The notes beneath the pieces were generated by a model, which worked only from the letters and a program-made list of their open reading frames with translations, did no database searches and was not told the origin of the DNA. Positions 26,356-59,611 of a stretch of DNA of 64,000 bases are shown here, one piece after another. A program made the translations under genes and the position numbers. The stretch's first letter is position 1. Each line of letters opens with the position of its first letter. The DNA comes from Cellulophaga sp. F20128 (GTDB taxonomy: Bacteria; Bacteroidota; Bacteroidia; Flavobacteriales; Flavobacteriaceae): contig NZ_JALKBA010000001.1 of the NCBI RefSeq assembly GCF_023015805.1, positions 310,001 to 374,000 on the forward strand, written 5' to 3'.

Positions 26356-26371
26356 CTAAACTCAATATAAA

Positions 26372-27883: not shown

Positions 27884-27930
27884 AAAACCATTGCCCAATC
27901 ATGGGAAAACAACTAAATAACCAAAACTAA

Positions 27931-30900: not shown

Positions 30901-31017
30901 TCGGGTGATATTGATCCCGAAGGAAGTTATAGTAGTGGACCAACAAGTACAGCCTTTGAACATTCATCATTACCTTCTACAAGAAACTATGGTGTTAATT
31001 TAAAACTTAACTTTTAA
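27931..31017 (+). CDS. SusC/RagA-family TonB-linked outer membrane protein
   Basis: Outer-membrane TonB-dependent transporter, 1028 aa. Signal peptide (about 1-19), CarboxypepD-like regulatory domain (about 22-105, [20 protein letters not shown]), plug domain (about 115-235, with the family segment [11 protein letters not shown] and [15 protein letters not shown]), then a 22-strand type barrel ending in the aromatic terminus NLKLNF. It would import a ligand captured by the SusD protein encoded 11 nt downstream. The ligand is unknown; adjacent redox proteins rather than glycoside hydrolases argue against an ordinary glycan. Confidence 0.95.
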
Positions 31018-31028
31018 TAAAGCCAACT

Positions 31029-32501
31029 ATGAAAAATATACAAAAAACAATTAGAAAAACAGTAGTTGCCTTAGGAATCCTACTATTGTTCGTTGCATGT
31101 GAAAACCATTTGGAGGACTTGTACGATAACCCAAATGCGGTAACAACAATAGATGATGCAGCCTTATTTACCAATGCTGTTCGAAGTTTATTTATAGGAA
31201 CATCCGATAACGCATCTAGCCATTTTGCAGGACAACATGCTCATTATTACGTAGCCGGAAGTACGTGGCGTGCCCCCGATCAATACGGAGATGGTTTTGA
31301 TGGGGATTACAACAGTATTTTCAATGGCCTTTACGGAGGCACCATTCGGCATATTGAAGAGGTCCTAGAACTAACCACGGCCGAAGGAACATCAAACAAG
31401 GTGCGTAATGCAATGGCACATATTATAGCCGTTTTAGGCTATGCCAAAATAACCGATGCCTTTGGGGATGTTCCCTATACCGAAGGTGGTAAGGGAAAAT
31501 CACAAAACATCGTACAACCAAAATACGACACCCAAGAAAGTATCTACAAAGACCTTATCCTAAGATTGACGAACAGTATTACTATATTAAAAACTGCTGA
31601 CCCTACAATGGGATACCCTAACTCTGACCCAATCTTCAATAACGACCTTTCCAAATGGATACGCTTTGCCAATAGTGTTCGCCTACGGTTGGCCATGCGA
31701 TTACGCTATGTTGACCCTGGTCTTTCTGAAGCCACGGTTAACCAATGTCTATCACAACCCCTTATGGAAACCACGGCGCATGATGCCTTTATGATAGAAA
31801 CCGAAGGAACTGGAAACGCCTGGTTTACAAGAAGAACAGGATTTCCATCGGTAAAAGTGTCCAATACACTTATTGACCAATTGCAAGGAACTGAAGACCC
31901 AAGATTAGCCGTTTTTGTTAGCACAAACGGGAATGGAGATTATTCGGGCATGGTCAACGGCCTTACGGATCAAGCCTTTGGAAGTTCAGATTTTGCAAAC
32001 AGATCAGATATGGGACTTCCGTTAGCTTCGCCAGATAGCAAGCTATATGTAATAACAGCTGCCGAAGTTTGGTTGTTGCGTGCTGAGGCTGCCTTGGCTT
32101 ATGATAATGATCCTGTTTCAGCCAATACTCTATATCGGAAAGGAATTGAAACTTCTATGAATCAATGGGAAGTAGCTGCACCCGAAATAACGACATTTCT
32201 TGCATCGCCAGCGGCAACATTGGCGGGCAACAATGATGAAGAACAAATTGGCGTACAAATGTGGTTAGCCCTTACACCAAATTTCTTTGAAGGGTGGTCA
32301 CACATTCGCCGTACAGGATATCCAATGATACCCATTAGAACAACAGACAATTTATCAAAGGGGGCAACCAACGGTATAATGCCTCATAGATTTAATTATT
32401 CTTCCTTTGAATTGGGTTCCAATACGACAAATGCTACTGAGGCTATCAATAGACAAGGCGCAAATAAAATAGACACCCCAGTTTGGTGGGATAAAAATTA
32501 A
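31029..32501 (+). CDS. SusD/RagB-family lipoprotein (SusD-like type 2)
   Basis: Surface lipoprotein, 490 aa, that forms a lid on the SusC partner and binds the substrate. The lipobox is LLFVAC with Cys near residue 24. The helical TPR-like body (e.g. [25 protein letters not shown], where the [11 protein letters not shown]-type motif is a family mark) and the C-terminal VWWDKN ending match SusD-like_2 proteins, the branch often paired with non-glycan substrates. It lies 11 nt after susC and is co-transcribed. Confidence 0.92.
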
Positions 32502-32527
32502 TCGTTTGAATTCAAAAATATAGAACT

Positions 32528-33418
32528 ATGAAATATTTAAAAATAGCAGCCTTTTTGTTCCTGAGCTTAACCATGGTAAACTGTTCTTCTGACGACGCCC
32601 CATTGTTACCTTTGGCCGATTTTCAGTTTTTGGTTGAAGGCACTCAAGTTACCTTTAACGGTACTGTAGAAAATGCATCCACCATTTCGTGGGATTTTGG
32701 TGATGGCACAAACAGTACAGAAGAAGACCCTGTGTACGCTTTTTCAAGTGCAGGAGTATATCAGGTGGTTTTAACGGTGAATGGCGCAAACGGTACGTTT
32801 TCAGAAACAAAAGAAGTTACCATCCTTCCCTCTCTTGAAATATTACTCACGGGTGGGCAAGCGAGACCCGAAGGAAAATCATGGAAACTGAAAAAGGCAT
32901 ATACCGCAGGGAAAGAAGGCGCTGGATTAATTGAAAATGATCTTGGTTTGTTGATCGCCTCATTTGATAATTTATTGGACGCTGTTGGCTTAGGTGCTTC
33001 TTATGAAGATACCTTTACCTTTGTATATGACGGTTCCTACAAAGTAGATAATATAGATGGGCAAAGCCTGATGGGTATTATTCATGCAAGTGTTTTTCAC
33101 GGGGCAAATATCACGGCTGTCTCAGCAGATTTAAACAATGTTCCTTTGGCAAATGCCTTATACACCCCAATTACCAACGCTACTTGGGAAATAAACGAGG
33201 GAGATTTTACCGTAGACACCGCATCTGGCCCAGTCAATTTTATAGGTAAAAAACAATTGATCCTAGGAGAATATTTAGGATTCAAAGAAACAACAACGGT
33301 CGTGATTTTAAAGGAAATTACCGAAACGACGATGAATGTAGCCTTGGGAATTCACACGGTAGAGGCAGCTTATGATAAGCCAACCTTATTATTTCATTTA
33401 ACCTTAGAGTCTTTCTGA
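32528..33418 (+). CDS. PKD-domain lipoprotein
   Basis: A 296-aa lipoprotein (lipobox MVNC with Cys19) with an N-terminal PKD domain at about 27-105 (ISWDFGDGTNSTEEDPVYAF is the classic motif) and a second beta-rich domain of about 180 residues, beginning LTGGQARPEGKSWKLKK, that is often found in surface lipoproteins encoded after SusCD pairs. It is the third surface component and probably binds ligand outside the cell. It is 26 nt downstream of susD on the same strand. Confidence 0.88.
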   Translation: MKYLKIAAFLFLSLTMVNCSSDDAPLLPLADFQFLVEGTQVTFNGTVENASTISWDFGDGTNSTEEDPVYAFSSAGVYQVVLTVNGANGTFSETKEVTILPSLEILLTGGQARPEGKSWKLKKAYTAGKEGAGLIENDLGLLIASFDNLLDAVGLGASYEDTFTFVYDGSYKVDNIDGQSLMGIIHASVFHGANITAVSADLNNVPLANALYTPITNATWEINEGDFTVDTASGPVNFIGKKQLILGEYLGFKETTTVVILKEITETTMNVALGIHTVEAAYDKPTLLFHLTLESF

Positions 33419-37786: not shown

Positions 37787-37899
37787 AGTATAACATTTCA
37801 GCAAAAACAAAAAACATCCCATTTATGATTAATTATTTACCTTTGATTGTTGACTTTTTCATCAAAAACACCAATTTTATGGGTCAACTGCAAAGAATT

Positions 37900-38934
37900 A
37901 TGATTAAAATCAGTATTGATGCCAAAGGCATTGAAGGTACCGTAAAGCAAATTCAAAACGCTATTGGTGGTACCATCGAAGAACGTTGGGGTGAATACAC
38001 ACTAGCTGTAGATTCGAAAATTGCAAAAGGAAGCATCCGGTTTATTACTTTTGATTGGGGGGTTAATTTATTAGAATATGACATTACCTTTTTTGATGAT
38101 ATAACCATAGAAATGGATGCCTCTAATTTTAATCCAATTCATTTTACCTATTGCCTAGAAGGTGATTGCAGCCATCGTTTTGGATATCAAACTGATGAGC
38201 AGATCAAAAAATTAGAACAATTTCAATCCGTAATAATCACAAGTAAAGACGGAGGTTACAACTACTTTTATTTTCCCAAGGGGAAAAAACTAGCCATTAA
38301 TGTTATTCAAATTACACGAAAACAGTTTTTAAAAAAGCGTCTTAATAATGTAGATCAGTTGAATAAAAAACTCTATGAAGTTTTTTTAGATACAGATCAC
38401 GAGAACACCTTTTCCTATTTTGGAGCCTATAATTTAAAAATGGCGGACAAAATAAGTGCTTTGCGAAAAGTAAAAACAAAAGGAATGATTCGGATTATGC
38501 AAATAGAAGGAATGGTATACCATATTCTATCCATGCACCTCTTACAATACAATAGAGCCACAAATAACAAAAACTTAAAGACTACCTTACTTAGAAGTGA
38601 GCTTAAGATTGTCCGGAACATATCCAAAATGATACTTAATGAAGTGTCTAAAGACTATTCTTTAGATATGCTTTGTAGAGAATCTGGTCTATCGCAATCA
38701 AAACTTCAAGAAGGTTTTAAAGTATTATACGCCCGTACGGTTACAGAATATATTAGGCATGTACGATTAGAAGAAGCTCGAGATTTCATTAGAAATACCG
38801 ATATGAATATCTCTCAAGTAGTGTACAGTATTGGTTTTAGCAGTAGAAGTTACTTCTCTAAGATTTTTAAAAACAAATACAAGATAAGCCCCAGTGACTT
38901 TAGAGAACATATACTTTCAAGGGTTAGTGCGTAA
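37900..38934 (+). CDS. AraC-family transcriptional regulator
   Basis: A regulator with a C-terminal AraC/XylS DNA-binding domain (about the last 100 residues, including the two helix-turn-helix motifs: MLCRESGLSQSKLQEGFK and the second SQVVYSIGFSSRSYFSKIFK pattern) and an N-terminal ligand-binding part of about 230 residues. The open frame starts at 37825, but the first 25 residues look untypical; MIKISIDAKG at 37900 is preferred, with 37825 and 37879 as alternatives. It precedes the PSD1 operon on the same strand. Three direct repeats at 20-21 bp spacing in the gap after it fit an AraC-type operator. Confidence 0.88.
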   Translation: MIKISIDAKGIEGTVKQIQNAIGGTIEERWGEYTLAVDSKIAKGSIRFITFDWGVNLLEYDITFFDDITIEMDASNFNPIHFTYCLEGDCSHRFGYQTDEQIKKLEQFQSVIITSKDGGYNYFYFPKGKKLAINVIQITRKQFLKKRLNNVDQLNKKLYEVFLDTDHENTFSYFGAYNLKMADKISALRKVKTKGMIRIMQIEGMVYHILSMHLLQYNRATNNKNLKTTLLRSELKIVRNISKMILNEVSKDYSLDMLCRESGLSQSKLQEGFKVLYARTVTEYIRHVRLEEARDFIRNTDMNISQVVYSIGFSSRSYFSKIFKNKYKISPSDFREHILSRVSA

Positions 38935-38986
38935 AAGCTTTTTATTCACTAATTTCATCCTTGTAAAACCCTAAAAACACATCCAT

Positions 38987-39055
38987 TTTACGCAAAAAAG
39001 TATCACTTTATGCAAAATAAGTTGTAATTTATGCTTTCTTAATTTTCTATATTTG
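38987..39055 (+). promoter_or_regulatory. Direct-repeat operator and promoter of the PSD1 operon
   Basis: TTTACGCAAAA (38987), TTTATGCAAAA (39007) and TTTATGC (39028) are direct repeats at 20- and 21-bp steps, the spacing used by AraC-family monomers. The -7 box TATATTTG (39048-39055) and a TTG (39022-39024; spacer 23 nt) form a Bacteroidota promoter. The last repeat lies between these boxes, so the regulator could contact RNA polymerase. Confidence 0.6.
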
Positions 39056-39094
39056 GAGTGATTCCATAAAACAATACCGGTGAGTTTTACAAAA

Positions 39095-42040
39095 ATGTCC
39101 GTTTTCATTGTCCTTATCTCCATGCTTGTTTTACAGTCTTCGTGTAGCAGCTCCGGTGAATACACAGAACCCTTACCAGAAATTGTAGACTTTAATTTTC
39201 ATATTAGACCCATTTTAGTACAAAACTGTTATTTGTGTCATGGGCCAGATCCTAGCAGTAGAAAAGCCAACTTAAGACTAGACAATTTAGAAGGAGCTAC
39301 CGCATTATTAGAAGATGGCGGTTATGCAATTGTACCTAAAAAGTCTTCTAAAGGTCTTTTAATAAGGCGAATTAATCACACGGCAGAAGACCAAATCATG
39401 CCTCCGCCAGAATCTAATCTTAAATTAACCCCAAGAGATAAAGCATTACTGGAAAAATGGATAGATCAAGGTGCTCAATGGAAAGATCACTGGGCCTTTA
39501 TACAACCTACGACCACTGCAAATGCTAACGATAATAATGTAATTGATGCTTTTATAGACAAGCGTATTGAAGAAAAAGGAATAGAAAAAATGCCAACTGC
39601 AGATAAAAACACGCTAATCCGAAGAGTTTCCTATCTGTTAACCGGACTTCCTCCTTCTCCTACTGCCGTTGAAAACTTTATAGCAAACAAAAGCGACTTG
39701 GCCTATGAGCAGCTCGTCGATAGTTATCTGAATACTCCCGCTTATGGAGAACGTTGGGCACGCCATTGGATGGATTTAACGCGTTATGCCGAAACAAAAG
39801 GACATGAATTTGATTACACCATAACTGGCGCTTGGAAATATCGAGACTATCTCATACGCGCTTTTAATGATGATATTGCATATGACCAATTACTAAAGGA
39901 GCATTTAGCTGGAGATTTACTAGAAAATCCCCGCTACGGCAAAGAAGATGGTATTTTAGAATCTCCCTTGGGGACCGCCTTTTTTGCTATGGGTGAAGGC
40001 ACTCATAGTCCGGTTGATATTAGACAAGATGAAGCGGACCGTATCGATAATATCATAGACGTTACTACAAAAACTTTTCAAGGACTAACGGTTTCATGTG
40101 CCAAATGCCATGATCATAAATTTGATCCCATTACTGCTGCCGATTATTACGCCTTTTACGGTGTCATAGAAAGCACTCGATTCTCTCCAATTCCGGCTGA
40201 GTTATCTAAAGATAAAAAACAAACGGTTCAAGAAATTGAAGGTTTACAAACCTATATGAGACAAATGCTTGCTGATTCTTGGTCTGATAAAGCAAAATCA
40301 ATACAAGCACAACACAGCATTAAAGACAAGCAAGTACCTTCCAAAGACACTCCAAATTATAAGGTAATAGGCGATTTTAGGAATTCAGATTTTAATGGAT
40401 GGAAAAGTAATGGACTAGGTTTTGGAAATGGGACTACATTAGGTAATCCGATACTTGACAAAAACACTGAAAAATTAATACGCCTTGATGAAGGTCGTGC
40501 TTCTAGTAAAGCAATGGGACTAAGTATTTTTGGAGCTCTACGCTCTCCAAATTTTGTAATAGATACTGATTTTATCGGGATCAGAGCCTTAGGCGTAAAA
40601 AGTACAATTCGGATCGTTGTTGATAATTTTCAATTAATTCAGAATCCTATTTACGGAAATTTGACTCGGGGAATTAATACGCCTGAATGGAACAACCATA
40701 CGTTTAATGTTGCATCCTTAAAAGGCCATAAAGCTTATATCGAAATATTACCAGGTGGGTACAATAGACACGACTACAGTCTGCCTGAAGATGCTTTTAT
40801 AGAGGCCGAATACGCTATTGCCTATGATGAGGAATGGCCCAAAACTATAGGTAATGACCGCGAGCCTAATGCCATAGGTGTCTCTTCGCAATTGGTGAAA
40901 ACAGTAAATAAACAACTTAAAAAAGGACAATTACCTTCCCAATTTCCAGCACTAAAAGTGATGATAGATAGTAGTGAAAGACTTGCTAAAAAACTAAAGT
41001 CCAATTCTTTTTTCTATGGTGTTTACGATGGCTTTGCCATTAATAGTCCTATTTTTAATAGAGGAAGCTATAAAGAATTGTCGGAAGACAGTATCCCTAG
41101 GCGGTTTTTATCAGCTTTACCTTTGGGAGACATTCCGTATTCGGCAGCAGGAAGTGGCCGTTTAGAAATGGCAAATGCTATGTTAAACAAAGACAATCCG
41201 CTTACGTCTAGGGTTATGGTAAACCGTATCTGGCACCACCTTTTTGGAAAAGGTATTGTAGAAACCGTAGACAATTTTGGTCTTCAAGGAAAACTACCTA
41301 CCCACCCCGAACTTTTGGATTTTTTGGCTATAAATTTTCAAGAAGAAGGATGGTCTATTAAAAAAATGATTCGGCAAATCGTCGTATCCGAAGCATTTCA
41401 AAGAAGTACAATTAGATCTGAAGAACTAGCCGAAAAAGATCCTACAAATATCTATTTGGCATCTTTTCCAGTTAGGCGATTAGAGTCTGAAGCCATACGA
41501 GATGCTCTATTGTCCGTTTCCGGAAATTTAGACACAACCCTTTACGGAAAGCCCATTGCAACGCATCTTACCGATTTTATGCAAGGAAGGGGTAGACCAG
41601 CTACCTCTGGTCCTTTAGATGGTGGTGGCAGAAGAAGCATTTATCAAGAGGTGCGCCGTAACTTCCTAGAACCAATGATGACTACTTTTGATAGGCCAAT
41701 GCCCTTTAGCACCTTTGGAAAACGAAATGTAACCAACGTGCCGTCGCAATCGCTGATTATTATGAACGATCCCTTTGTGGCCAAACAAGCAGAATTAATG
41801 GCGCAACAATTACTAGCCGCAGCCAATTTATCATTTGAAAACAAGGTGAATTGGGTCTATATGAAAACTTTTTCTCGTTCCGCAACTGCTGATGAAATCA
41901 CGAAAGCAAAAACCTTTATTACAATGCTTCAAAATAGGAAGGAGCAAGAGTTACCAAAGGGTTTAGACAAAGAAACTAGCATTTGGACCACCTATTGCCA
42001 TAGTATTTTTAACCTAAAGGAATTTATATACCTAATCTAA
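39095..42040 (+). CDS. PSCyt1/PSCyt2/PSD1 planctomycete-type protein, lipoprotein
   Basis: Large exported protein (about 981 aa; a GTG at 39080 would add five residues) with lipobox LQSSC, then a PSCyt1 cytochrome domain with the CYLCH motif (Cys50-His54 in the longer count), PSCyt2 (DUF1549; TKGHEFDYTITGAWKYRDYL-like segment and a second CxxCH motif CAKCH in a DHKFDPI context), an inserted beta-rich region of about 250 residues, and the C-terminal PSD1 (DUF1553) domain with NRIWHHLFGKGIVETVDNFG. These families are typical of Planctomycetes and are thought to act in the periplasm or on the surface; their chemistry is not established. The gene overlaps the DUF1501 gene by one base (TAATG), showing tight coupling. 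Confidence 0.9.
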   Translation: MSVFIVLISMLVLQSSCSSSGEYTEPLPEIVDFNFHIRPILVQNCYLCHGPDPSSRKANLRLDNLEGATALLEDGGYAIVPKKSSKGLLIRRINHTAEDQIMPPPESNLKLTPRDKALLEKWIDQGAQWKDHWAFIQPTTTANANDNNVIDAFIDKRIEEKGIEKMPTADKNTLIRRVSYLLTGLPPSPTAVENFIANKSDLAYEQLVDSYLNTPAYGERWARHWMDLTRYAETKGHEFDYTITGAWKYRDYLIRAFNDDIAYDQLLKEHLAGDLLENPRYGKEDGILESPLGTAFFAMGEGTHSPVDIRQDEADRIDNIIDVTTKTFQGLTVSCAKCHDHKFDPITAADYYAFYGVIESTRFSPIPAELSKDKKQTVQEIEGLQTYMRQMLADSWSDKAKSIQAQHSIKDKQVPSKDTPNYKVIGDFRNSDFNGWKSNGLGFGNGTTLGNPILDKNTEKLIRLDEGRASSKAMGLSIFGALRSPNFVIDTDFIGIRALGVKSTIRIVVDNFQLIQNPIYGNLTRGINTPEWNNHTFNVASLKGHKAYIEILPGGYNRHDYSLPEDAFIEAEYAIAYDEEWPKTIGNDREPNAIGVSSQLVKTVNKQLKKGQLPSQFPALKVMIDSSERLAKKLKSNSFFYGVYDGFAINSPIFNRGSYKELSEDSIPRRFLSALPLGDIPYSAAGSGRLEMANAMLNKDNPLTSRVMVNRIWHHLFGKGIVETVDNFGLQGKLPTHPELLDFLAINFQEEGWSIKKMIRQIVVSEAFQRSTIRSEELAEKDPTNIYLASFPVRRLESEAIRDALLSVSGNLDTTLYGKPIATHLTDFMQGRGRPATSGPLDGGGRRSIYQEVRRNFLEPMMTTFDRPMPFSTFGKRNVTNVPSQSLIIMNDPFVAKQAELMAQQLLAAANLSFENKVNWVYMKTFSRSATADEITKAKTFITMLQNRKEQELPKGLDKETSIWTTYCHSIFNLKEFIYLI

Positions 42041-43488
42041 TGAGCAAGTACCACAATTTTATGCAGCGTTCACTTTCGCGCCGAGAAATGCTAGACATCT
42101 GTAAAGGTGGCTTTGGTTCCCTTGCCTTTATGAGCTTGTTTGGAGGCCTGCCCTTATTGGGCTGTGAGCGTCCAAAAAATAATGCAGCTTCTAATTTATA
42201 TTTGGGACCGCATTACCTTCCAAAAGCTAAAAATGTAATCTTTTTATATATGGATGGCGGTGTTTCTCAAGTAGATTCTTTTGACCCAAAACCAAGATTA
42301 GCAAAAGAAAATGGCGAAGACCCTAGAAAAAAATTCAAAGTAGATGCTACGCAATTTGATAACGTAGGTAAAATTTTAAAAAGTCCATGGGAGTTTACTC
42401 AATATGGAAATTCTGGGATACCAATCAGCGAACTTTTTCCACATATTGCAACCTGTGCAGATGATCTTGCAGTCATCCGTTCTATGACTTCAAATTTCCC
42501 AGAACACACCAATGCCAATTACTTTTTACACACGGGTAGCGGTATACAAGGAAGGCCAAGTATGGGCTCTTGGATGACCTATGGCTTGGGTAGTGAAAAT
42601 AAAAACATTCCTGGATATGTGGTACTAGATGGTGGCTTAGTGCCTCCTGGCGGCTTGGATAATTTTAAAAATGGATTTTTACCTGCTTCCTATCAAGCCT
42701 CTATCTTTAAATCTGGTCCAGAACCTGTTGCAAACATAGTACCGAAAGAGGATGGAGCTAATTTGCAAGAACAAAAACTAGATTTCATCAAACAAATGGA
42801 CCAAAGCCTTATCTCTAAAATGGGCGAAGAAGACGCCGTGGAATCAGCTATTTCTAATTATGAATTGGCTTATAAAATGCAAACTTCAATCCCAGAACTA
42901 ACAGAATTTAAATCTGAGTCAGAAGCCACCAAGAAATTATATGGCTTAGATTCAGACGACCCTCATAAAAAAGGATATGCTTCGCAATGCCTATTAGCTC
43001 GTAGGTTGGTAGAGCGCGGTGTTCGATTTGTGGAGTTAACCTGTCCCAACATAAGTGGTTTTGATCGGTGGGACCAACACAGTAACCTTAAAAATGGACA
43101 CGAACGTAACGCTCATGCCGTAGACCAACCTATTGCCGGTCTATTAAAAGATTTAAAATCCCGTGGCTTGCTTGAAGAGACCTTGGTCGTCTGGACTGGG
43201 GAATTTGGAAGAACACCCTTTGCACAAGGTGCTAATGGTCGCGACCACAACCCCTCGGCTTTTAGCATGTGGATGGCTGGCGCAGGCATAAAAGGAGGCA
43301 CCATTTTTGGAAAAACAGATGAATATGGATACAGAGTCGTAGAAAACCCTGTTACCATCCACGATTTACACGCTACCATTATGCATTTGCTCGGTATAAA
43401 TCACGAACAACTAACCTTCCGTTTTGGAGGTCGCGACATGCGACTTACAGACGTTCACGGCCATATCATAAAAGACGTATTGGCTTAA
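42040..43488 (+). CDS. DUF1501 family protein
   Basis: A 482-aa exported protein with a Tat-like N-terminus (SLSRREMLDICKGG, then hydrophobic to GC near residue 44). The body is an alkaline-phosphatase/sulfatase-type fold: the segment NVIFLYMDGGVSQVDSFDPK at about 67-86 and the conserved GEFGRTPFAQGANGRDHNP near residue 387, with His-bearing metal-site segments. DUF1501 genes are regularly paired with PSD1 genes, as here with a one-base overlap. The substrate is unknown. Confidence 0.92.
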   Translation: MSKYHNFMQRSLSRREMLDICKGGFGSLAFMSLFGGLPLLGCERPKNNAASNLYLGPHYLPKAKNVIFLYMDGGVSQVDSFDPKPRLAKENGEDPRKKFKVDATQFDNVGKILKSPWEFTQYGNSGIPISELFPHIATCADDLAVIRSMTSNFPEHTNANYFLHTGSGIQGRPSMGSWMTYGLGSENKNIPGYVVLDGGLVPPGGLDNFKNGFLPASYQASIFKSGPEPVANIVPKEDGANLQEQKLDFIKQMDQSLISKMGEEDAVESAISNYELAYKMQTSIPELTEFKSESEATKKLYGLDSDDPHKKGYASQCLLARRLVERGVRFVELTCPNISGFDRWDQHSNLKNGHERNAHAVDQPIAGLLKDLKSRGLLEETLVVWTGEFGRTPFAQGANGRDHNPSAFSMWMAGAGIKGGTIFGKTDEYGYRVVENPVTIHDLHATIMHLLGINHEQLTFRFGGRDMRLTDVHGHIIKDVLA

Positions 43489-43502
43489 TAAATGAAAAAA
43501 AA

Positions 43503-44429
43503 ATGAAAAAAACAATACAACAAACTGTATTTATAATGTGGTTGTTAGCACCACTTTTTATTATGGGCCAACAAGCGTGGACCCAAGCAGAAATAAAACA
43601 CTCCCTCTTTATTGCAGGCCCACAATTTACCGGAATTTTAGGCGAAAATAATGAAGTAGTTTGGGATTCTAAAAAAGCAAGTGCTAGAGACGGCTACGTA
43701 CTTAAAAATGGAAATATACTAATTTGTTGGGGCGATGAGGTACGGGAATACAACAAGAAAAAAGAAGTAATATTTACCTATACAAGAGCTGAAAAGTCTA
43801 TGGAATTAGGTACCGCCGTTCGCTTAAAAAATGGTAATACTATGATTACGGAATCTGGTAAAAGTCCCCGTATTATTGAAGTAAACAAAAAAGGTGTAGT
43901 TGTAAAATCCATACCTTTACAGCCAGATACCGACAATGTACACATGCAAACTCGTATGGCCAGAAAACTTAAAAATGGCAATTATTTAGCACCCCATTTA
44001 TTGGCGTTTGCGGTTAAAGAATATACGCCAAATGGAGACGTCATTAAAACTTTTAAAACAGACGCAGATGCCCTTGGCGGCAGAGCTGCAGAAAACTGGC
44101 CTTTTACAGCAATACGACTAAAAAATGGAAACACCGTAGTTACACTTACACACGGCAATAAAGTGGTAGAATTAGATACTGAAGGAAAGGTGGTATGGAA
44201 ACTTACCAATGCAGACTTAGAGGGAAATCCATTGGCAGATCCCTGTGGTGCACAAAGATTACCAAACGGTAATACCGTAATTACAAGTTATGGCGCCAAA
44301 GGCGGTTTAAAAATTATTGAAGTCAACCCAAATAAAGAAATGCTATGGAGTTATTCTGGCCACAATGCACATCATTTTCAAGTATTGACTACAAACGGTA
44401 AAAAAATTAAAGGGTCGCCCTTAAAATAA
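43503..44429 (+). CDS. Secreted beta-propeller protein with NGN repeats
   Basis: A 308-aa protein with a signal peptide (about 1-22, MKKTIQQTVFIMWLLAPLF) and five repeats of the type LKNGNxxI (VLKNGNIL, RLKNGNTMI, KLKNGNYLA, RLKNGNTVV, RLPNGNTVI), each followed by a VxELDxxGKVVW-like strand. This is the PQQ-like/arylsulfotransferase-like propeller pattern. No cofactor ligands can be assigned. It lies 14 nt after the DUF1501 gene and eight nt before the next gene, so it is part of the operon. Confidence 0.85.
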   Translation: MKKTIQQTVFIMWLLAPLFIMGQQAWTQAEIKHSLFIAGPQFTGILGENNEVVWDSKKASARDGYVLKNGNILICWGDEVREYNKKKEVIFTYTRAEKSMELGTAVRLKNGNTMITESGKSPRIIEVNKKGVVVKSIPLQPDTDNVHMQTRMARKLKNGNYLAPHLLAFAVKEYTPNGDVIKTFKTDADALGGRAAENWPFTAIRLKNGNTVVTLTHGNKVVELDTEGKVVWKLTNADLEGNPLADPCGAQRLPNGNTVITSYGAKGGLKIIEVNPNKEMLWSYSGHNAHHFQVLTTNGKKIKGSPLK

Positions 44430-44436
44430 CAGCTCA

Positions 44437-45837
44437 TTGATTGTATTTACTATTGGGTTTTTAGAGAACCCATCGGACTTTATTCTCTTTTTAGGTAGAC
44501 TACACCCACTTGTGGTACATTTACCTATTGGGTTTATTTTTATGGCTGTCATCGCCCAATTTGCATCCCAAAAACCAAAGTTTAAACCTCTTGAACCTTT
44601 TGTTTCATACATCTGGCTCCTCGGGATAGCAAGCACCTTTTTTGCAGTGCTATTCGGTTATTTTTTATCCCTTTCTGGCGATTACGACCCAGACACCCTT
44701 TTTTGGCACAAATGGATGGGTGTAGGGGTATTACTATTTATTATTGGCTGCTATTATAGTACCAAACAAGGCAAAACCACCTTTACCTACTCCAAATGGG
44801 CATTTACAATTATCGTAGCCATTTCTATCGGCATTACCGGACATTTAGGAGGAAATCTAACACATGGCTCAACCTACTTGCTAGAATACGCCCCAAATAC
44901 AGTTAGAAATTTAGCTGGATTGCCAGACAAGGTTGAAGCACGTAAAAAAGTTGTTGTTTTAGATTCTGCTGATGTTTTTCTAGATATCGTTATGCCCATG
45001 ATGAACAGTACCTGCATAAGTTGCCATAATGATGGCAAAAGGAAAGGTGGATTAAAGCTAAACTCCTATGTCAATATGTTAAAAGGTGGTGAAAATGGCG
45101 CAGCCATTGTTCCTGGAAAACCCCTAAAAAGTGAATTATTGCACAGAATAACACTGCCAGAAAACCACGAAGACTTTATGCCGTCAGAGGGCAAAAGACC
45201 TCTTACAACTCAAGAAGTTAACCTTATTGAATGGTGGATTAGCAATGGTGCACCCGATACTGGATACTTTACTGCCTTAAACCCCGACAAAAAAACACGT
45301 ACGCTGGCTGAAAATTATTTAGGCCTAAACAAAAAAAATCAGTTGTACTCGCAACAGGTAGCCCCTCCAAAAGGCAAAGTTATAGATACCCTAGCCAAAC
45401 GCGGTTTTGTGATTAACCGTCTCATGAACGACAACAACTTTTTAGATCTTAATTTAAGTTTAAGTGAACAAAGCCTACTGCCTAACGATCTAATCTTATT
45501 GCTTCAACTTAAAGAACAATTGCTTTGGTTAAACCTAAGCAACAGCAATATAACGGATACTCAGCTTGAAAAAATTGGTGCATTAAACAACCTTATCCGC
45601 TTAGACCTCAGCAATACTAACATTACAGACAAAGGTTTAGAACATTTGACGGCTCTAGAACATCTAGAGGTTCTTAATTTATACAACACTGGGGTAACAG
45701 ACCAAGTATTCCCACTACTCTCAAAACTTAAAACACTTAAAAAAGTATATTTGTGGCAAACCAATATCACAGAAGCTACTGTCCTTCAATTTAAAAAAGA
45801 ACATCCAAACCTTGTTGTGGATTTCAGGAGAGAATAA
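44437..45837 (+). CDS. DUF2231-like membrane / cytochrome c / LRR protein
   Basis: A 466-aa protein starting at TTG (no ATG in suitable position). It has about four N-terminal membrane helices (about 15-160) that open with GRLHPLVVHLPIGFIFMAV, the DUF2231-type segment with His residues, then a PSCyt1 domain with the CISCH motif (Cys193-His197) and PEGxRPL features, and a C-terminal leucine-rich repeat region (about 330-460: LLWLNLSNSNITDTQLEKI, LIRLDLSNTNITDKGLEHL). The combination would link membrane electron transfer to a protein-binding surface. It ends the PSD1 part of the operon. Confidence 0.88.
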   Translation: MIVFTIGFLENPSDFILFLGRLHPLVVHLPIGFIFMAVIAQFASQKPKFKPLEPFVSYIWLLGIASTFFAVLFGYFLSLSGDYDPDTLFWHKWMGVGVLLFIIGCYYSTKQGKTTFTYSKWAFTIIVAISIGITGHLGGNLTHGSTYLLEYAPNTVRNLAGLPDKVEARKKVVVLDSADVFLDIVMPMMNSTCISCHNDGKRKGGLKLNSYVNMLKGGENGAAIVPGKPLKSELLHRITLPENHEDFMPSEGKRPLTTQEVNLIEWWISNGAPDTGYFTALNPDKKTRTLAENYLGLNKKNQLYSQQVAPPKGKVIDTLAKRGFVINRLMNDNNFLDLNLSLSEQSLLPNDLILLLQLKEQLLWLNLSNSNITDTQLEKIGALNNLIRLDLSNTNITDKGLEHLTALEHLEVLNLYNTGVTDQVFPLLSKLKTLKKVYLWQTNITEATVLQFKKEHPNLVVDFRRE

Positions 45838-45900
45838 ATACTAGTTCCACTTACAAATCATAATTTATTCTTAAATCAGAAAACGATACACTTCTATTGG

Positions 45901-45908
45901 TATATTTG
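45901..45908 (+). promoter_or_regulatory. Possible -7 box upstream of ABC transporter genes
   Basis: TATATTTG matches TAnnTTTG and lies 12 nt before the ATG at 45921. No TTG at standard spacing. It suggests a short-leader internal promoter and argues against the TTG at 45897 as the start codon. Confidence 0.4.
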
Positions 45909-45920
45909 TTTATTAAGATT

Positions 45921-46547
45921 ATGATTAAGACTACCAAACTTCAGTTTTCATACACGCCCGATTCCGAATTTCATTTTCCGGACATTTCCTTGGCAGAAGG
46001 GGAGCATCTTTTAATTTTAGGAGCCTCCGGGGTTGGCAAGACTACATTATTGCATTTGTTATCTGGTCTACTGCCAGTGAGCTCGGGAAACATTACCATA
46101 GACGCTACAGAATTGCCCAGCTTATCTAGAAAACAACTAGACGCTTTTAGAGGAAGGAAAATGGGAATTATTTTCCAGAATGATTATTTTATTAGTTCAC
46201 TTTCTGTCAGCGAAAATTTAGCATTGCGACTCTATTTTCCCGACAAGAAAAAAGACATTAAAAGAATTCGAGAGCTAGCAGCTAGATTAGGAATTCTAGA
46301 TCAATTAGACAAAAAGGTTACCGCCCTAAGTGAAGGACAACGTCAGCGTTTGTCTATTGCCATAGCGCTCATAAACAAACCTAAGGTAATTTTTGCCGAT
46401 GAACCAACCGCTAGCCTGGATGATGAGAATTGTGAAAAAGTAATTGAACTTTTGAAAGAAGAAGCTAGTCTCAGCAAAGCGAACTTACTTATAATTACAC
46501 ATGATCAACGAGTAAAAACAATGTTCAAAAACCATTTACAGTTATGA
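45921..46547 (+). CDS. ABC transporter ATP-binding protein (MacB/LolD type)
   Basis: A 208-aa cytosolic ATPase. Walker A GASGVGKT at 34-41, signature LSEGQRQRL, Walker B VIFADEPTASLD and a following H-loop HD are all intact. The small size and the partner permease with an FtsX-type fold place it in the LolD/MacB/YbbA group, which moves lipoproteins or acts as a mechanotransducer. The frame is open from a TTG at 45897, but ATG at 45921 matches the family start. It overlaps the permease gene by four bases. Confidence 0.93.
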   Translation: MIKTTKLQFSYTPDSEFHFPDISLAEGEHLLILGASGVGKTTLLHLLSGLLPVSSGNITIDATELPSLSRKQLDAFRGRKMGIIFQNDYFISSLSVSENLALRLYFPDKKKDIKRIRELAARLGILDQLDKKVTALSEGQRQRLSIAIALINKPKVIFADEPTASLDDENCEKVIELLKEEASLSKANLLIITHDQRVKTMFKNHLQL

Positions 46548-47734
46548 ATCTTGTAAAACTCAGTTTTAAAAATTTAGTGTCAAAGCCTTTAAATGCTTTG
46601 CTAAGTTTGCTATTGTTAGTTTTAAGTGTAGCACTTGTAACCTTTATGCTGCAACTAAGCGAGCAAGTAAAAGGCAACTTAGATAAAAATATAAAACCTG
46701 TAGATTTGGTAGTTGGTGCAAAGGGAAGTCCATTACAATTGGTGCTTTCTTCCGTTTTACATATCGATGCCCCTACCGGAAATATTAAATTAATAGAAGC
46801 TGAAAAACTCAAAAAAAGTCGACTTATAAAAACGGCAATTCCTGTATCTTATGGTGACAACTACAAAGGGGTTCGTATTTTAGGCACGGACAGTACGTAT
46901 TTTGCGATGTATCACGCCAATTTAAAAATGGGTCGGTTTTTTTCTAAATCTCATGAAGTAGTTCTAGGGAGTACTTCAGCCAAAAAACTAAAATTAAAGC
47001 TAGGCGACACCTTTTTAAGTTCACACGGATTAGCAGATCAAAGTTTACAAGAACACCACGGACATCCGTTTGTTGTGGTGGGTGTTTTGGAATCTACGGG
47101 GAGTGTAGTAGACAATTTAATAGTCACCAATTTAGAAAGCATTTGGGATGTTCATGGACATGCGGAAGAAGAACACAAGCACGAAGATTTAGAAATAACC
47201 TCACTACTAATTCAATTTAGAAATCCAATGGCAATGGTACAGTTGCCACGGTATATTAATGACAAAACCAACATGCAAGCTGCCTTGCCTTCCTTAGAGA
47301 TTAACCGTTTGGTTCGCTTATTGGGTGTTGGAGTACAAACCATTCAACTTATTGCAATTGCCATTCTTCTGGTCTCAGGTTTAAGTATTTTTATTAGTCT
47401 TTTAAAGGCTATCCGCGAACGTAGGCAAGAGTTGGCCCTATTGCGCACCTATGGTGCAACTTCTGGTCAGCTACTATGGCTCGTTCTATTAGAAGGCTTG
47501 TTTTTAGGGCTTATAGGCTTTATTTTTGGATGGCTTATAGGTAGAATAGGATTATGGGTAATTGCCGCTTATGCTCAAGATAGCTATGGGTATTCCCTAA
47601 GTTTAGGTCTACCCACTACATGGGAAGCAATATTGTTAGTTGCAACTTTGGCTATTACCGCTTTGGCTTCTATTTTAGCTTCGCTATCTGTTTTTAAATT
47701 AAACGTTTCTAAAATATTATCCACAGAAAAATAA
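46544..47734 (+). CDS. FtsX/MacB-type ABC permease with His-rich loop
   Basis: A 396-aa permease with an N-terminal transmembrane helix (about 18-38), a large periplasmic domain (about 40-265), and three C-terminal helices (about 268-290, 316-340, 360-385) in the FtsX layout. The periplasmic domain carries two His-rich patches: EHHGHP (170-175) and DVHGHAEEEHKHEDLE (from residue 202). These could bind a divalent metal. From memory, similar permeases occur in zinc-responsive operons of gamma-proteobacteria; this was not checked. It is translationally coupled to the ATPase gene. Confidence 0.9.
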   Translation: MNLVKLSFKNLVSKPLNALLSLLLLVLSVALVTFMLQLSEQVKGNLDKNIKPVDLVVGAKGSPLQLVLSSVLHIDAPTGNIKLIEAEKLKKSRLIKTAIPVSYGDNYKGVRILGTDSTYFAMYHANLKMGRFFSKSHEVVLGSTSAKKLKLKLGDTFLSSHGLADQSLQEHHGHPFVVVGVLESTGSVVDNLIVTNLESIWDVHGHAEEEHKHEDLEITSLLIQFRNPMAMVQLPRYINDKTNMQAALPSLEINRLVRLLGVGVQTIQLIAIAILLVSGLSIFISLLKAIRERRQELALLRTYGATSGQLLWLVLLEGLFLGLIGFIFGWLIGRIGLWVIAAYAQDSYGYSLSLGLPTTWEAILLVATLAITALASILASLSVFKLNVSKILSTEK

Positions 47735-47742
47735 AGAGCATT

Positions 47743-49362
47743 ATGAAAAGAAGAATCCTATTGTTTAAGTACCTACTTCCCCTATTTTGTATAGGTATGG
47801 CATCCTGTTCTGAGCAACCTGCAACGCCTACATACGACCTTGTAATTTATGGCGGAACATCTTCCGGTATCGTTGCAGCCATCCAAGCCACTAAAATGGG
47901 CAAAACTGCCATAGTAATAGAGCCAAGCGCTACAATTGGCGGACTTTCTACCGGAGGTTTGGGGGCTACTGATATTGGAAACAAACAAGCTATTGGAGGT
48001 ATTTCTCGAGAATTTTACGAACGTATTGCACAAAAATATGCGAATCCTAAGGCCTGGAAATTTGAAAAAAGGGAAGCCTATATTAAGAATGATACCGCAA
48101 CTTCTATGTGGACTTTTGAACCCAAAGTAGCAAAAGAAGTATTTGCAGATATGGTTAAAGAATACAACATAGACGTTGTTTATAATGAACGTTTAGATCT
48201 ATCAAAAAATGCAAACAAAGAAAACGGAAAAATCATTTCCATTGAAATGGAATCTGGCAATAAGTACTATGGCAAAATTTTTATTGATGCTACCTATGAA
48301 GGTGATTTATTGGCAAAAAGTAATATCAGTTATACCATAGGCCGGGAACCCAATTCTAAGTACAACGAAACATTAAGCGGGGTACAAACAGCCTTGGGTT
48401 ATTACCATCAATTTCCTGACGGTGTGGATCCTTATATTGTTAAAGGAGATGCTAATAGCGGCTTACTACCCAACGTAAATGCCGCCATTGCAAAAGATGG
48501 TACTGGAGATGATAAAGTACAAGCCTTCTGCTTTAGAATGTGCATTACGGATGTACCAGAAAACCAGATTTTAGTTGATAAACCAAAAGATTATAAAGAA
48601 TTAGAGTACGAGTTATTATTTAGAGCAATAGAAGCCGGCTACAAAGGCCCGTTTTTTATTATGTCAATGATGCCGAATCGGAAAACAGATTCCAACAACA
48701 AAGGTCCTTTCTCCACAGACTATATTGGAAAAAACTATGACTATCCCGACGGCGATTATAAAACTAGGGAAGCCATTGTTAAGGCCCATGAAGTCTATCA
48801 AAAAGGATTATTATGGACACTTGGAAACCACCCTAGAGTTCCAGCCGAAATTAGAGAAGAATATATAAAATGGGGGCTTCCAAAAGATGAATATACCACC
48901 AATGGACATTGGACACCCCAATTATATATTAGAGAGGCGAGAAGGATGGTTAGTGATTTTGTAATGACAGAACACCATTGTACCCAAGATTCAATTTCTG
49001 CCGACCAATCTATTGGAATGGGTGCCTACACTATGGATTCTCATCATACGCAACGTTATATAGACCAAAACGGTTTTGTAAAAAACGAAGGGGATGTAGA
49101 AGTTGGTGGCTTTCCACCCTACCCAATAAGCTACAAAGCTATTGTACCCAATGAAAAAGAATGTACCAATTTGTTGGTTCCGGTTTGCTTGTCTGCTTCC
49201 CATATGGCATTTGGATCGATACGAATGGAACCTGTTTTTATGATTTTAGGCCAGTCTGCTGCCACCGCAGCTTGCATAGCCATTGATCAAGATATTGCAG
49301 TACAAAAAGTACCGTATCCGGAATTAAAAAAACAATTAAAAAAGGACAAACAAGTACTGTAG
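47743..49362 (+). CDS. FAD-dependent oxidoreductase, exported lipoprotein
   Basis: A 539-aa FAD_oxidored-family protein with a lipoprotein signal (MASCSEQP; Cys near residue 22), so it acts outside the cytoplasm. The dinucleotide motif is YGGTSSGIVAAIQATKMGK followed by the FAD-binding segment IGGLSTGGLGATD, and the C-terminal FAD segment SIRMEPVFMILGQSAATAA. Families of this type, frequent in Planctomycetes and Bacteroidota, have been annotated for various carbohydrate-related roles without biochemical proof. It follows the permease gene by eight bases and is probably in the same transcript. Confidence 0.88.
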   Translation: MKRRILLFKYLLPLFCIGMASCSEQPATPTYDLVIYGGTSSGIVAAIQATKMGKTAIVIEPSATIGGLSTGGLGATDIGNKQAIGGISREFYERIAQKYANPKAWKFEKREAYIKNDTATSMWTFEPKVAKEVFADMVKEYNIDVVYNERLDLSKNANKENGKIISIEMESGNKYYGKIFIDATYEGDLLAKSNISYTIGREPNSKYNETLSGVQTALGYYHQFPDGVDPYIVKGDANSGLLPNVNAAIAKDGTGDDKVQAFCFRMCITDVPENQILVDKPKDYKELEYELLFRAIEAGYKGPFFIMSMMPNRKTDSNNKGPFSTDYIGKNYDYPDGDYKTREAIVKAHEVYQKGLLWTLGNHPRVPAEIREEYIKWGLPKDEYTTNGHWTPQLYIREARRMVSDFVMTEHHCTQDSISADQSIGMGAYTMDSHHTQRYIDQNGFVKNEGDVEVGGFPPYPISYKAIVPNEKECTNLLVPVCLSASHMAFGSIRMEPVFMILGQSAATAACIAIDQDIAVQKVPYPELKKQLKKDKQVL

Positions 49363-49400
49363 TCATGCCTTCAAATGTTCTGGAACAATTATTGAAATAG

Positions 49401-49408
49401 TATCTTTG
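49401..49408 (+). promoter_or_regulatory. Possible -7 box of the small secreted protein gene
   Basis: TATCTTTG matches TAnnTTTG and lies 14 nt upstream of the ATG at 49423; no TTG at standard spacing. Confidence 0.35.
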
Positions 49409-49422
49409 AAAAAAATAGTGTT

Positions 49423-49869
49423 ATGCTTAAAAAATTAGGATTATTATCAGTTTTTATACTCTTTACTCAAGTTGCCATATCGCAAGCCTTGTTAGATTGG
49501 GATGATATGATTTTGGGGGTTGCCTACGATGTACCTGAAGGAGGTGCAGAATTGGGTGAGTTTTTAACACCTACCTATACCAAACAAATGATTGCCTTAG
49601 AAGGTAAAGAAATTTCCATAATTGGTTACTTCCTAATTCTAGAAGGTGAAAAAGACACCTATATGCTTTCCAACAACCCAATGGCATCTTGTTTCTTTTG
49701 TGGAAATGGAGGGCCAGAAACTATTATAGAATTGTATTTTGATGCCAAACCTACCTTTCTTATGGACGACCTAATCTCCGTAAAAGGAAAACTAAAATTA
49801 AATAGAGATAATCCAGATCATACCTATTACACCATTGAACAGGCCAATGGCTTTGCTATAAAACTTTAA
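49423..49869 (+). CDS. Small secreted protein, DUF3299-like
   Basis: A 148-aa protein with a signal peptide (about 1-19, MLKKLGLLSVFILFTQVAIS). The mature part has a central strand GKEISIIGYFLILEGEKDTY, a CFFC motif (about residues 91-94) followed by GNGGPETIIELYF, and ends in strands. The layout (GYxxP/LE, a Cys-bearing turn, then beta strands) resembles the DUF3299 family, often found beside FtsX-type transporters with His-rich loops. The CxxC pair could bind metal or form a disulfide. Confidence 0.65.
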   Translation: MLKKLGLLSVFILFTQVAISQALLDWDDMILGVAYDVPEGGAELGEFLTPTYTKQMIALEGKEISIIGYFLILEGEKDTYMLSNNPMASCFFCGNGGPETIIELYFDAKPTFLMDDLISVKGKLKLNRDNPDHTYYTIEQANGFAIKL

Positions 49870-58906: not shown

Positions 58907-59611
58907 CTATTCACGAATAGACCACACCTCATAAATATCCGCTCCTTTGCTACTTTTACCACTATGGTGCCAATCACCATTCTTTATCTCATATTTAAAA
59001 TCTAGAGCAGCACCTACTCTACTATCATCCCTAGAGAAATAGGCTATTTTCTCTATATATGTTCCATTTTTAGCCTCGTAAGTTCCTCCTCCAGTTCCAG
59101 AAAACTGAAAGGTATCTGAATTAAAAGCGATCCATTGAAAATGGCCATTGTATAAAAATTTCATTGTTTTTCTCGGCTTTTTGAATACTTCAGCCTTATC
59201 AAAACTTTGATCTCCCCTGCCAGTAATTAGCCACTTTCCATTTAAGTCTATTGGACTCTCATTACTCTTGGTATAGCTTTTTACAGTATCTGCCTCTAGT
59301 TTTAGTTCCTTTTTATTTTGTATAAAACTATAAACCAACTCTTTTACACCATCTTCTTGAAAATTGGAATTAAACTCTAATTTTACCCTGAGTTGATTGC
59401 CTTCTACTGTGTAAAATCCTCCTTGGGTTTTGATAAACTTAGCTGGATTTTTTTGGTATACCGTTGCTACAAAATAGGTGTCATCAATTTTCAATTCATG
59501 CACCAAGCTAACATTCCCCTGTTTTTCTTCAGATAGAAAAACACCTGAATTTAATTGTGCATTTGCGAAGGAAGCCATGATAAAAAAAACGGCAATACAT
59601 ATATTTCTCAT
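58907..59611 (-). CDS. Secreted hypothetical protein, 234 aa
   Basis: It carries a signal peptide (about 1-19, MRNICIAVFFIMASFANAQ). The mature part has repeated beta strands: KIDDTYFVATVYQ, FYTVEGNQLRVKLEF, MKFLYNGHFQWIAFN, TGGGTYEAKNGTYIEK. Two similar halves suggest a lipocalin- or META-like sandwich of unknown role. No catalytic residues are seen. The gene is monocistronic. Confidence 0.7.
   Translation of the reverse strand: MRNICIAVFFIMASFANAQLNSGVFLSEEKQGNVSLVHELKIDDTYFVATVYQKNPAKFIKTQGGFYTVEGNQLRVKLEFNSNFQEDGVKELVYSFIQNKKELKLEADTVKSYTKSNESPIDLNGKWLITGRGDQSFDKAEVFKKPRKTMKFLYNGHFQWIAFNSDTFQFSGTGGGTYEAKNGTYIEKIAYFSRDDSRVGAALDFKYEIKNGDWHHSGKSSKGADIYEVWSIRE

Follow-up and report, generated by a model that had tools for sequence, protein, structure and literature searches.

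A four-gene haem-protein cassette in a probable composite locus of Cellulophaga sp. F20128 and its possible part in the periplasmic oxidation of sugar-like molecules

We analyzed a 64,000-nucleotide stretch of the Cellulophaga sp. F20128 genome (contig NZ_JALKBA010000001.1, positions 310,001 to 374,000; hereafter the window), in which a preceding sequence-only reading had described eight genes, running from an AraC-family regulator to a flavin adenine dinucleotide (FAD) oxidoreductase and including a PSD1/DUF1501 pair, as a single AraC-controlled set. Comparison with related genomes indicated that what had been taken for an operon of eight genes is most likely a pre-existing locus of transporter genes that carries an inserted four-gene haem-protein block and a separately inserted flavoprotein gene. 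Our favored account, to which we give a probability of about 40%, joins this composite locus with a function: the cassette would encode an exported redox chain that oxidizes a cyclitol or a sugar in the periplasm and delivers the electrons to quinone. The genes themselves were all found where they had been described, on the + strand, with their families borne out by Pfam, and the PSD1 and DUF1501 genes do overlap by one base (42040). The features of the locus are as follows.

37825-38934, + strand: AraC-family regulator, apparently native to the site and probably outside the cassette (Pfam; copies at empty sites)
38936-45851, + strand: first putative inserted stretch, the four-gene cassette, as judged from the empty site L138
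39080-42040, + strand: exported PSD1 protein with PSCyt1, PSCyt2 and PSD1 domains (Pfam, CxxCH motifs, AlphaFold2 model, fold search)
42040-43488, + strand: DUF1501 protein (Pfam, E 2.7e-146), sharing base 42040 with the PSD1 gene
43503-44429, + strand: exported NGN-repeat beta-propeller (Pfam, Mala_s_1-like; solved relative 3no2)
44437-45837, + strand: DUF2231 and PSCyt1 protein with a leucine-rich repeat (LRR) tail (Pfam, CxxCH motif, alignment rows, predicted fold)
45897-46547, + strand: ABC ATPase, LolD/DevA/MacB-like (Pfam), apparently native and outside the cassette
46544-47734, + strand: FtsX/MacB-type permease (Pfam), apparently native and outside the cassette
47736-49380, + strand: second putative inserted stretch, with the FAD gene, as judged from six empty sites
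47743-49362, + strand: FAD_oxidored lipoprotein gene (Pfam), between FtsX and h148
49423-49869, + strand: h148, a small protein whose N-terminus is signal-like and which completes the apparently native ABC-FtsX-h148 trio

The composite origin rests mainly on empty sites. A search for FtsX in 60 relatives retrieved six genomes of the same genus with copies 84-85% identical to that of the window, and their neighborhoods (L138-L143) showed the order dps, MscS, AraC, ABC, FtsX and h148, with 76-85% identity to the window; AraC was present in three of the six, as a 78-80% identical copy, and a DUF748 gene followed h148 in five (39-43% identity). PSD1, DUF1501, the propeller, DUF2231 and FAD were absent from all six neighborhoods. 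In blastn comparisons, homology to L138 stopped at 38935, just after AraC, and restarted at 45852, while homology to all six sites stopped at 47735 (47742 in L143), just after FtsX, and restarted at 49381. Furthermore, nine further loci, four of them from the same genus, were taken from 16 additional genomes with an FtsX match at E 1e-60 or better, and in every one of the nine ABC, FtsX and h148 formed an unbroken trio with neither FAD nor cassette (FtsX 42-46% identical). Because of these empty sites and the unbroken trio, AraC, ABC and FtsX look native to the site, and the cassette and the FAD gene look, on this comparison of gene order, like two separate insertions. What we observed is presence and absence; given the pattern, insertion in the lineage of the window is more likely than repeated loss. 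In keeping with a patchy distribution, the window PSD1 had no match above 42% identity in 17 other genomes of the genus, and window-type DUF1501 occurred in 9 of 299 genomes of the family, the window's own included. A copy of the FAD gene (48-49% identity) was found in 3 of 39 relatives searched (G005, G010 and G016, same genus). Base composition neither supports nor dates an insertion, since the GC content at third codon positions in the cassette (0.28-0.35) lies near the mean of the window's open reading frames (0.30, standard deviation 0.04), and we therefore rejected foreign composition as a sign of it. A stress or osmotic role suggested by the neighboring dps and MscS genes was rejected as well, both being native to the site.

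Relatives also support the four genes as a unit. The set of window-type loci comprised 41 loci from Bacteroidota (33 of the 80 loci from one search, L144, and L214-L220), 12 of which reached less than 3 kb upstream or less than 6 kb downstream of PSD1. In all 13 flanked loci from Flavobacteriaceae, PSD1, DUF1501, propeller and DUF2231 stood together and in this order, and none of the 13 carried AraC, ABC, FtsX or FAD. Over the 41 loci no homologue of FtsX, FAD, h148, MscS or dps was detected at E 1e-10, and distant ABC ATPases (26-32% identity) turned up in three. Thus the ABC and FAD genes do not accompany PSD1/DUF1501 in relatives, the very outcome that the sequence-only reading had named as speaking against it. 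In none of the 41 loci was an AraC-like gene found closer than 3 kb to PSD1, L045 and L082 having one farther off. Near other PSD1 subtypes such genes were seen in 3 of 19 flanked loci (L006, and the long proteins of L146 and L154) and, at 26-34% identity, in 8 of 29 short loci (L009-L037); two of these eight coincide with L146 and L154. AraC-type control may therefore apply to PSD1 cassettes in general, although the regulator at this site is probably not part of the cassette. Among the 29 loci whose sequence covers 3 kb or more upstream and 6 kb or more downstream of PSD1, the propeller was found in 14 and DUF2231 in 18; outside Bacteroidota, the propeller appeared in 4 of 47 loci (L064, L065, L066 and L068). 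Judged by their conserved order, the four genes can be regarded as a self-contained cassette, and the remark that the set exceeds the usual PSD1/DUF1501 pair holds by virtue of the propeller and the DUF2231-cytochrome.

The genome of the window itself contains eight PSD1/DUF1501 cassettes, seven canonical ones ending in a DUF2231-cytochrome and one with a DUF2231-PSD1 fusion; altogether there were 16 PSCyt1 matches and 10 DUF1501 matches, eight of the latter nearly full length. Six of the seven other places follow the scheme PSD1-DUF1501-[middle gene]-DUF2231-cytochrome. The middle gene is missing in L001, L005 and L004 (L004 has two PSD1 genes), is an NHL propeller in L006 and L003, the latter with a further FN3-type lipoprotein, and is a xylose-isomerase-like TIM barrel in L007. 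In L002, a DUF2231-PSCyt1-PSCyt2-PSD1 fusion precedes DUF1501. Likewise, the stretch from PSCyt2 to PSD1 spans 326 residues in the window protein and 88-91 in L003 and L004, and holds a LamG domain in L006. These varying middle genes and inserts indicate a constant redox core with changing partners.

Two variants deserve description. A second stable subtype (L007, L145, L151, L152 and L153) has the order PSD1, DUF1501, a protein of about 300 amino acids and DUF2231; L007 and L151 encode a TIM barrel as the middle protein, and in L007, L151, L152 and L153 the cassette is followed by a gene for 476 amino acids, assigned in L007 to the Na:sulfate symporter family by Pfam. At L003 (5906-9829 and 18081-19901), the NHL propeller cassette has FN3/discoidin modules on its DUF2231 protein and, some 4 kb past PSD1, there is a GH20 hexosaminidase, perhaps a hint of an amino-sugar glycan.

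The CxxCH motif is an established haem-binding site, and the proteins from PSD1 to DUF2231 contain three of them, two in PSD1 (residues 50 and 340) and one in the DUF2231 protein (residue 193, CISCH). The earlier count of two PSCyt1 domains is right, but the second PSD1 motif (CAKCH, within PSCyt2) had been overlooked. Two motifs were found in 48 of 51 PSD1 rows and one in the other three. The three PSD1 domains were matched in Pfam with E-values of 4.8e-14 (PSCyt1), 1.5e-74 (PSCyt2) and 3e-84 (PSD1); the GTG start of the gene is a mechanical call, and translation may begin at a later ATG. At the sequence level, the PSCyt1 part is similar to haem domains found in hydrazine synthase alpha and FoxE (E about 1e-5). 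An AlphaFold2 model of PSD1 (mean predicted local distance difference test, pLDDT, 89.9; predicted template modeling score, pTM, 0.90) contains a central beta-sandwich, which its strands would place near residues 425-585 and which showed a weak Foldseek likeness to carbohydrate-binding modules (CBM) 61, 29, 4 and 22 (E 5e-3 to 6e-2); among the best 50 PDB matches, there was no full-length match for PSD1 and none convincing for its helical parts. In the rows of the DUF2231 type, C193, C196, H197 and M248 were kept in 20 of 20, and histidines 23, 28, 91, 136 and 143 in all 19 that have the membrane domain. The model of this protein (mean pLDDT 82.5, pTM 0.48) has long helices at 28-43, 47-78, 85-110 and 114-139, with the five histidines near helix ends. 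As the haem c domain that follows helix 4 should be periplasmic, the histidines should lie at the periplasmic ends in this modeled topology. For its LRR tail, matches stayed below Pfam cut-offs, but the predicted fold matches LRR proteins. DUF1501 begins with a twin-arginine-type N-terminus, with RR somewhere among residues 1-60 in 47 of 48 rows. Pfam found no flavin or pyrroloquinoline quinone (PQQ) domain in any of the four proteins.

On these grounds, namely the CxxCH motifs in the PSD1 and DUF2231 rows, Met248 and the five conserved histidines, we read the cassette as a redox system. In the mechanism that we propose, the four-gene cassette would have entered between the native AraC gene and the native ABC-FtsX-h148 trio, and the FAD gene would have entered the trio itself. 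The cassette would encode an exported redox chain, with DUF1501 and the propeller as exported partners; a cyclitol or sugar-type substrate would be oxidized in the periplasm, and electrons would travel from PSD1 to the haem c of DUF2231, then to a haem b in the membrane, bound at the periplasmic face by the five histidines, and finally to quinone. Of the surface redox system suggested from the sequence alone, an exported system of cytochromes and DUF1501 thus survives, while AraC, ABC, FtsX and FAD drop out.

The class of substrate is suggested by the neighboring genes. Inositol 2-dehydrogenase (iolG; TIGR04380, over the curated cut-off) is a neighbor of the cassette in L042, L043, L046, L049 and L144, and close homologues 54-76% identical to the L042 copy lie near it in L114, L219 and L220, the genomes of the last two having iolG over the cut-off at those positions. 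At L045, a class-II aldolase gene (Pfam; iolJ is our own label) and iolB, iolC and iolD (NCBIfam, over cut-off) directly follow the cassette, and copies of these genes, 93-98% identical, are present in L082. In total, iolG-like or iolBCD genes occur in 10 of the 41 window-type loci, and these 10 are spread over several families according to the record titles. In the family of the window, 20 of 299 genomes have iolG, that is, 5 of the 9 with window-type DUF1501 and 15 of the 290 without it (Fisher p 8.5e-5), the DUF1501 and iolG searches appearing to draw on the same 299 genomes; in three of the five co-occurring genomes iolG is within 10 kb of the cassette (p about 3e-6 if gene positions are modeled as uniform). 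In a broader set of uneven phylogenetic make-up, iolG over cut-off was found in 11 of 20 genomes with a cassette versus 1 of 35 lacking it; for iolD the figures were 8 of 20 and 1 of 35. Other neighbors were an SGL lactonase (L042), 2-keto-3-deoxy-galactonokinase (DGOK) with KDPG aldolase (L057 and L097) and a 3-keto-disaccharide hydrolase together with Gfo/Idh (L084); 3-keto-glycoside pathways exist in Bacteroidota. Downstream in L214 (12739-19119) and L038 (18046-20844), there is a CBM9 protein with a GSDH-cytochrome c protein. A CBM9 homologue was also noted in L218, and an amidohydrolase and a SelA-like pyridoxal phosphate enzyme in L214; it is possible that this downstream set of L214, L038 and L218 represents a second catabolic pathway linked to the cassette. 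The iol neighbors in a quarter of the relatives hint that the block feeds electrons from sugar-like molecules into respiration. Together with the co-occurrence, the other sugar-catabolic neighbors, the PSD1 sandwich and the LamG domain of a paralogue, they are why we propose a cyclitol or sugar.

Several observations weigh against this reading. No iol gene accompanies the cassette in 31 of the 41 loci, and 15 of the 20 family genomes with iolG do not have window-type DUF1501. In the genome of the window, iolG was not matched at E 1e-60 and iolD did not pass its cut-off, which excludes inositol as the substrate there through the classical route; moreover, iolG already oxidizes inositol in the cytoplasm, and the step catalyzed by the cassette may accordingly be another. 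When neighbors were counted without selection, Gfo/Idh made up 5 of 102 genes (18 loci) versus at most 1 of 91 control genes, an enrichment that we set aside as weak. The likeness of the PSD1 sandwich to CBMs comes with weak E-values and alongside gingipain adhesin and MAM, which are sandwich folds too; ranked first by Foldseek is BIRC6 (E 6e-4), an unrelated protein with TM-scores below 0.1. With the DUF2231 model, Foldseek gave LRR matches only among the best 50 and did not place the membrane domain. Finally, in the 47 loci outside Bacteroidota the DUF2231 membrane domain was not found, matches there covering only the haem c part onward, and this, together with its presence in only 18 of the 29 flanked loci, means that DUF2231 is not essential everywhere.

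The strongest rival to periplasmic oxidation is a hydrolytic role, in which DUF1501 would be a metal-dependent hydrolase of the alkaline phosphatase fold (sulfatase or phosphatase type) that frees sulfate or phosphate from glycans or inositol phosphates, the haem proteins having another, perhaps binding or sensing, role; we hold this to be unlikely, though by no means far-fetched. DUF1501, which Pfam places in its alkaline phosphatase clan, is the best conserved member of the cassette (66-90% identity in window-type loci of Bacteroidota), has nine invariant Asp, His and Glu residues (D82, D141, H156, D345, H347, E388, D402, H403 and H455), and aligns with sulfatases over approximately residues 357-454 near its C-terminus (hhalign probability 69, E 4e-5; weak PDB hits). 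True sulfatase genes lie near the cassette in at least three of the seven loci L214-L220 (L214, L216 and L219), and genes for a purple acid phosphatase and HAD proteins beside L038. Nevertheless, the N-terminal catalytic half of sulfatases does not align with DUF1501, and C/S-x-P-x-R was in the catalytic place in none of 48 DUF1501 rows (three matches that begin among residues 1-45 are due to chance), whereas all eight sulfatases fetched from the window genome (of 62 matches) have it. D72, the residue that a by-eye alignment pairs with the first Asp of sulfatases, is conserved in no more than 29 of the 48 rows, and the window DUF1501 had no Sulfatase (PF00884) match at E 0.001, three paralogues matching below cut-off. 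Sulfatase was not among the 25 commonest families in the 102 neighbors of 18 loci either, and the three haem c motifs per cassette would be left unexplained. We consequently rejected DUF1501 as an ordinary sulfatase, its likeness being confined to about 100 residues that leave out the catalytic motif; the earlier idea of a sulfated substrate is weak on the same facts, although there are the sulfatase neighbors of L214-L220. As a separate observation, the genome has 62 PF00884 matches in 4.17 Mb, 57 of them above cut-off (a few being split pieces), which suggests that the organism degrades sulfated polysaccharides.

Slightly less likely still, in our estimate, is that the cassette is a haem-based sensor, or a general module for respiration or electron export that has no specific substrate. 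Its occurrence several times per genome with varying middle genes would suit such a role, as would the LRR and the propeller, which are binding modules; on the other hand, the recurrent catabolic neighbors (inositol, sugar acid, 3-keto-sugar, sulfatases) and the lectin-type domain inside a PSD1 paralogue speak against it. An AraC-controlled operon for surface redox chemistry that takes in the eight genes between and including AraC and FAD appears very improbable. The shared strand, the short gaps, the overlaps at 42040 and 46544-46547 and the AraC-like genes near some other PSD1 subtypes favor it, but the empty sites with their breakpoints, the trio intact in nine of nine further loci and the gene content of the 41 window-type loci led us to reject it and to prefer three separate units, which may nonetheless be co-transcribed since the insertions. 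Compared with these alternatives, we prefer periplasmic oxidation of a cyclitol or sugar by an inserted cassette. A broader generalization is doubtful: that PSD1-DUF1501-(propeller or other exported partner)-DUF2231-cytochrome is a new family of modular, quinone-coupled periplasmic cyclitol/sugar oxidation systems, with a new type of haem or metal site, exchangeable subunits for different substrates and lectin inserts, disseminated within Bacteroidota through the insertion of cassettes and having DUF2231 as its cytochrome b.

The cassette can be set against three known systems. Cytochrome-linked membrane dehydrogenases of sugars and polyols, and glycoside 3-dehydrogenases, are well known (e.g., gluconate, sorbitol and glucoside 3-dehydrogenase); the likeness in working is an exported cytochrome c chain beside sugar-catabolism genes, while the difference is the lack of a flavin or PQQ domain among the four proteins. 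With formylglycine sulfatases (PF00884), DUF1501 shares only the C-terminal segment discussed above. With the Planctomycete-type pair of Planctomycetes-Verrucomicrobia-Chlamydiae (PVC) bacteria, the cassette shares the PSCyt1/PSCyt2/PSD1 architecture and the adjoining DUF1501 gene, the best DUF1501 copies in loci outside Bacteroidota being mostly 49-63% identical and further copies 25-44%. It differs in the added DUF2231-cytochrome-LRR protein, in the four-gene unit kept throughout the flanked Flavobacteriaceae loci, in the presence of eight PSD1/DUF1501 cassettes in one genome, and in the inositol link in Bacteroidota. The passages on PSCyt/PSD genes in He et al. (2017, PMC5615132) report that in Verrucomicrobia these genes adjoin unknown gene families, often near sulfatases, suggest a carbohydrate role, and state that nothing was known of their functions; in the passage of PMC11495043 that names it, PSCyt1 is merely listed among cytochrome domains. 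A search of titles and abstracts in the open-licence literature retrieved no paper that gives a function to PSD1, DUF1501 or DUF2231.

Concerning the remaining genes, the ABC ATPase and the FtsX/MacB permease, whose genes overlap at 46544-46547, correspond to the make-up of a MacB/LolD-type transporter (ATPase plus permease, Pfam); matches stayed below the cut-off of every NCBIfam model listed, so no substrate can be named for it. The window copy of h148 had no Pfam or NCBIfam match, and three copies in relatives had no Pfam match either; its identification as DUF3299, a guess by eye, is accordingly not claimed. Scans for promoter-like sites (39 versus 38.4 in shuffles) and terminator-like sites (14 versus 10.4, standard deviation 2.9) were not used. 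Elsewhere in the window, 25162-33418 (+ strand) holds another redox/uptake cluster with a dihaem CCP_MauG peroxidase, a NosD-like beta-helix protein with a cytochrome domain, a SusD-like lipoprotein and a protein that by eye resembles a TonB receptor. A protein of 234 amino acids without a clear Pfam family is encoded at 58907-59611 (- strand); its homologues (44-51% identity) stand upstream of PSD1, adjoining it or one gene beyond, in L040, L041, L215, L216, L217 and L219, and it may be a detached partner of the cassette.

These results illustrate how eight genes that look like a convincing operon in a single genome can turn out to be an unrelated locus that received two insertions. In PVC bacteria PSCyt/PSD genes are plentiful; a minimal, repeated flavobacterial cassette with a membrane cytochrome partner and a link to inositol offers for them a testable class of substrate and a testable route of electrons.

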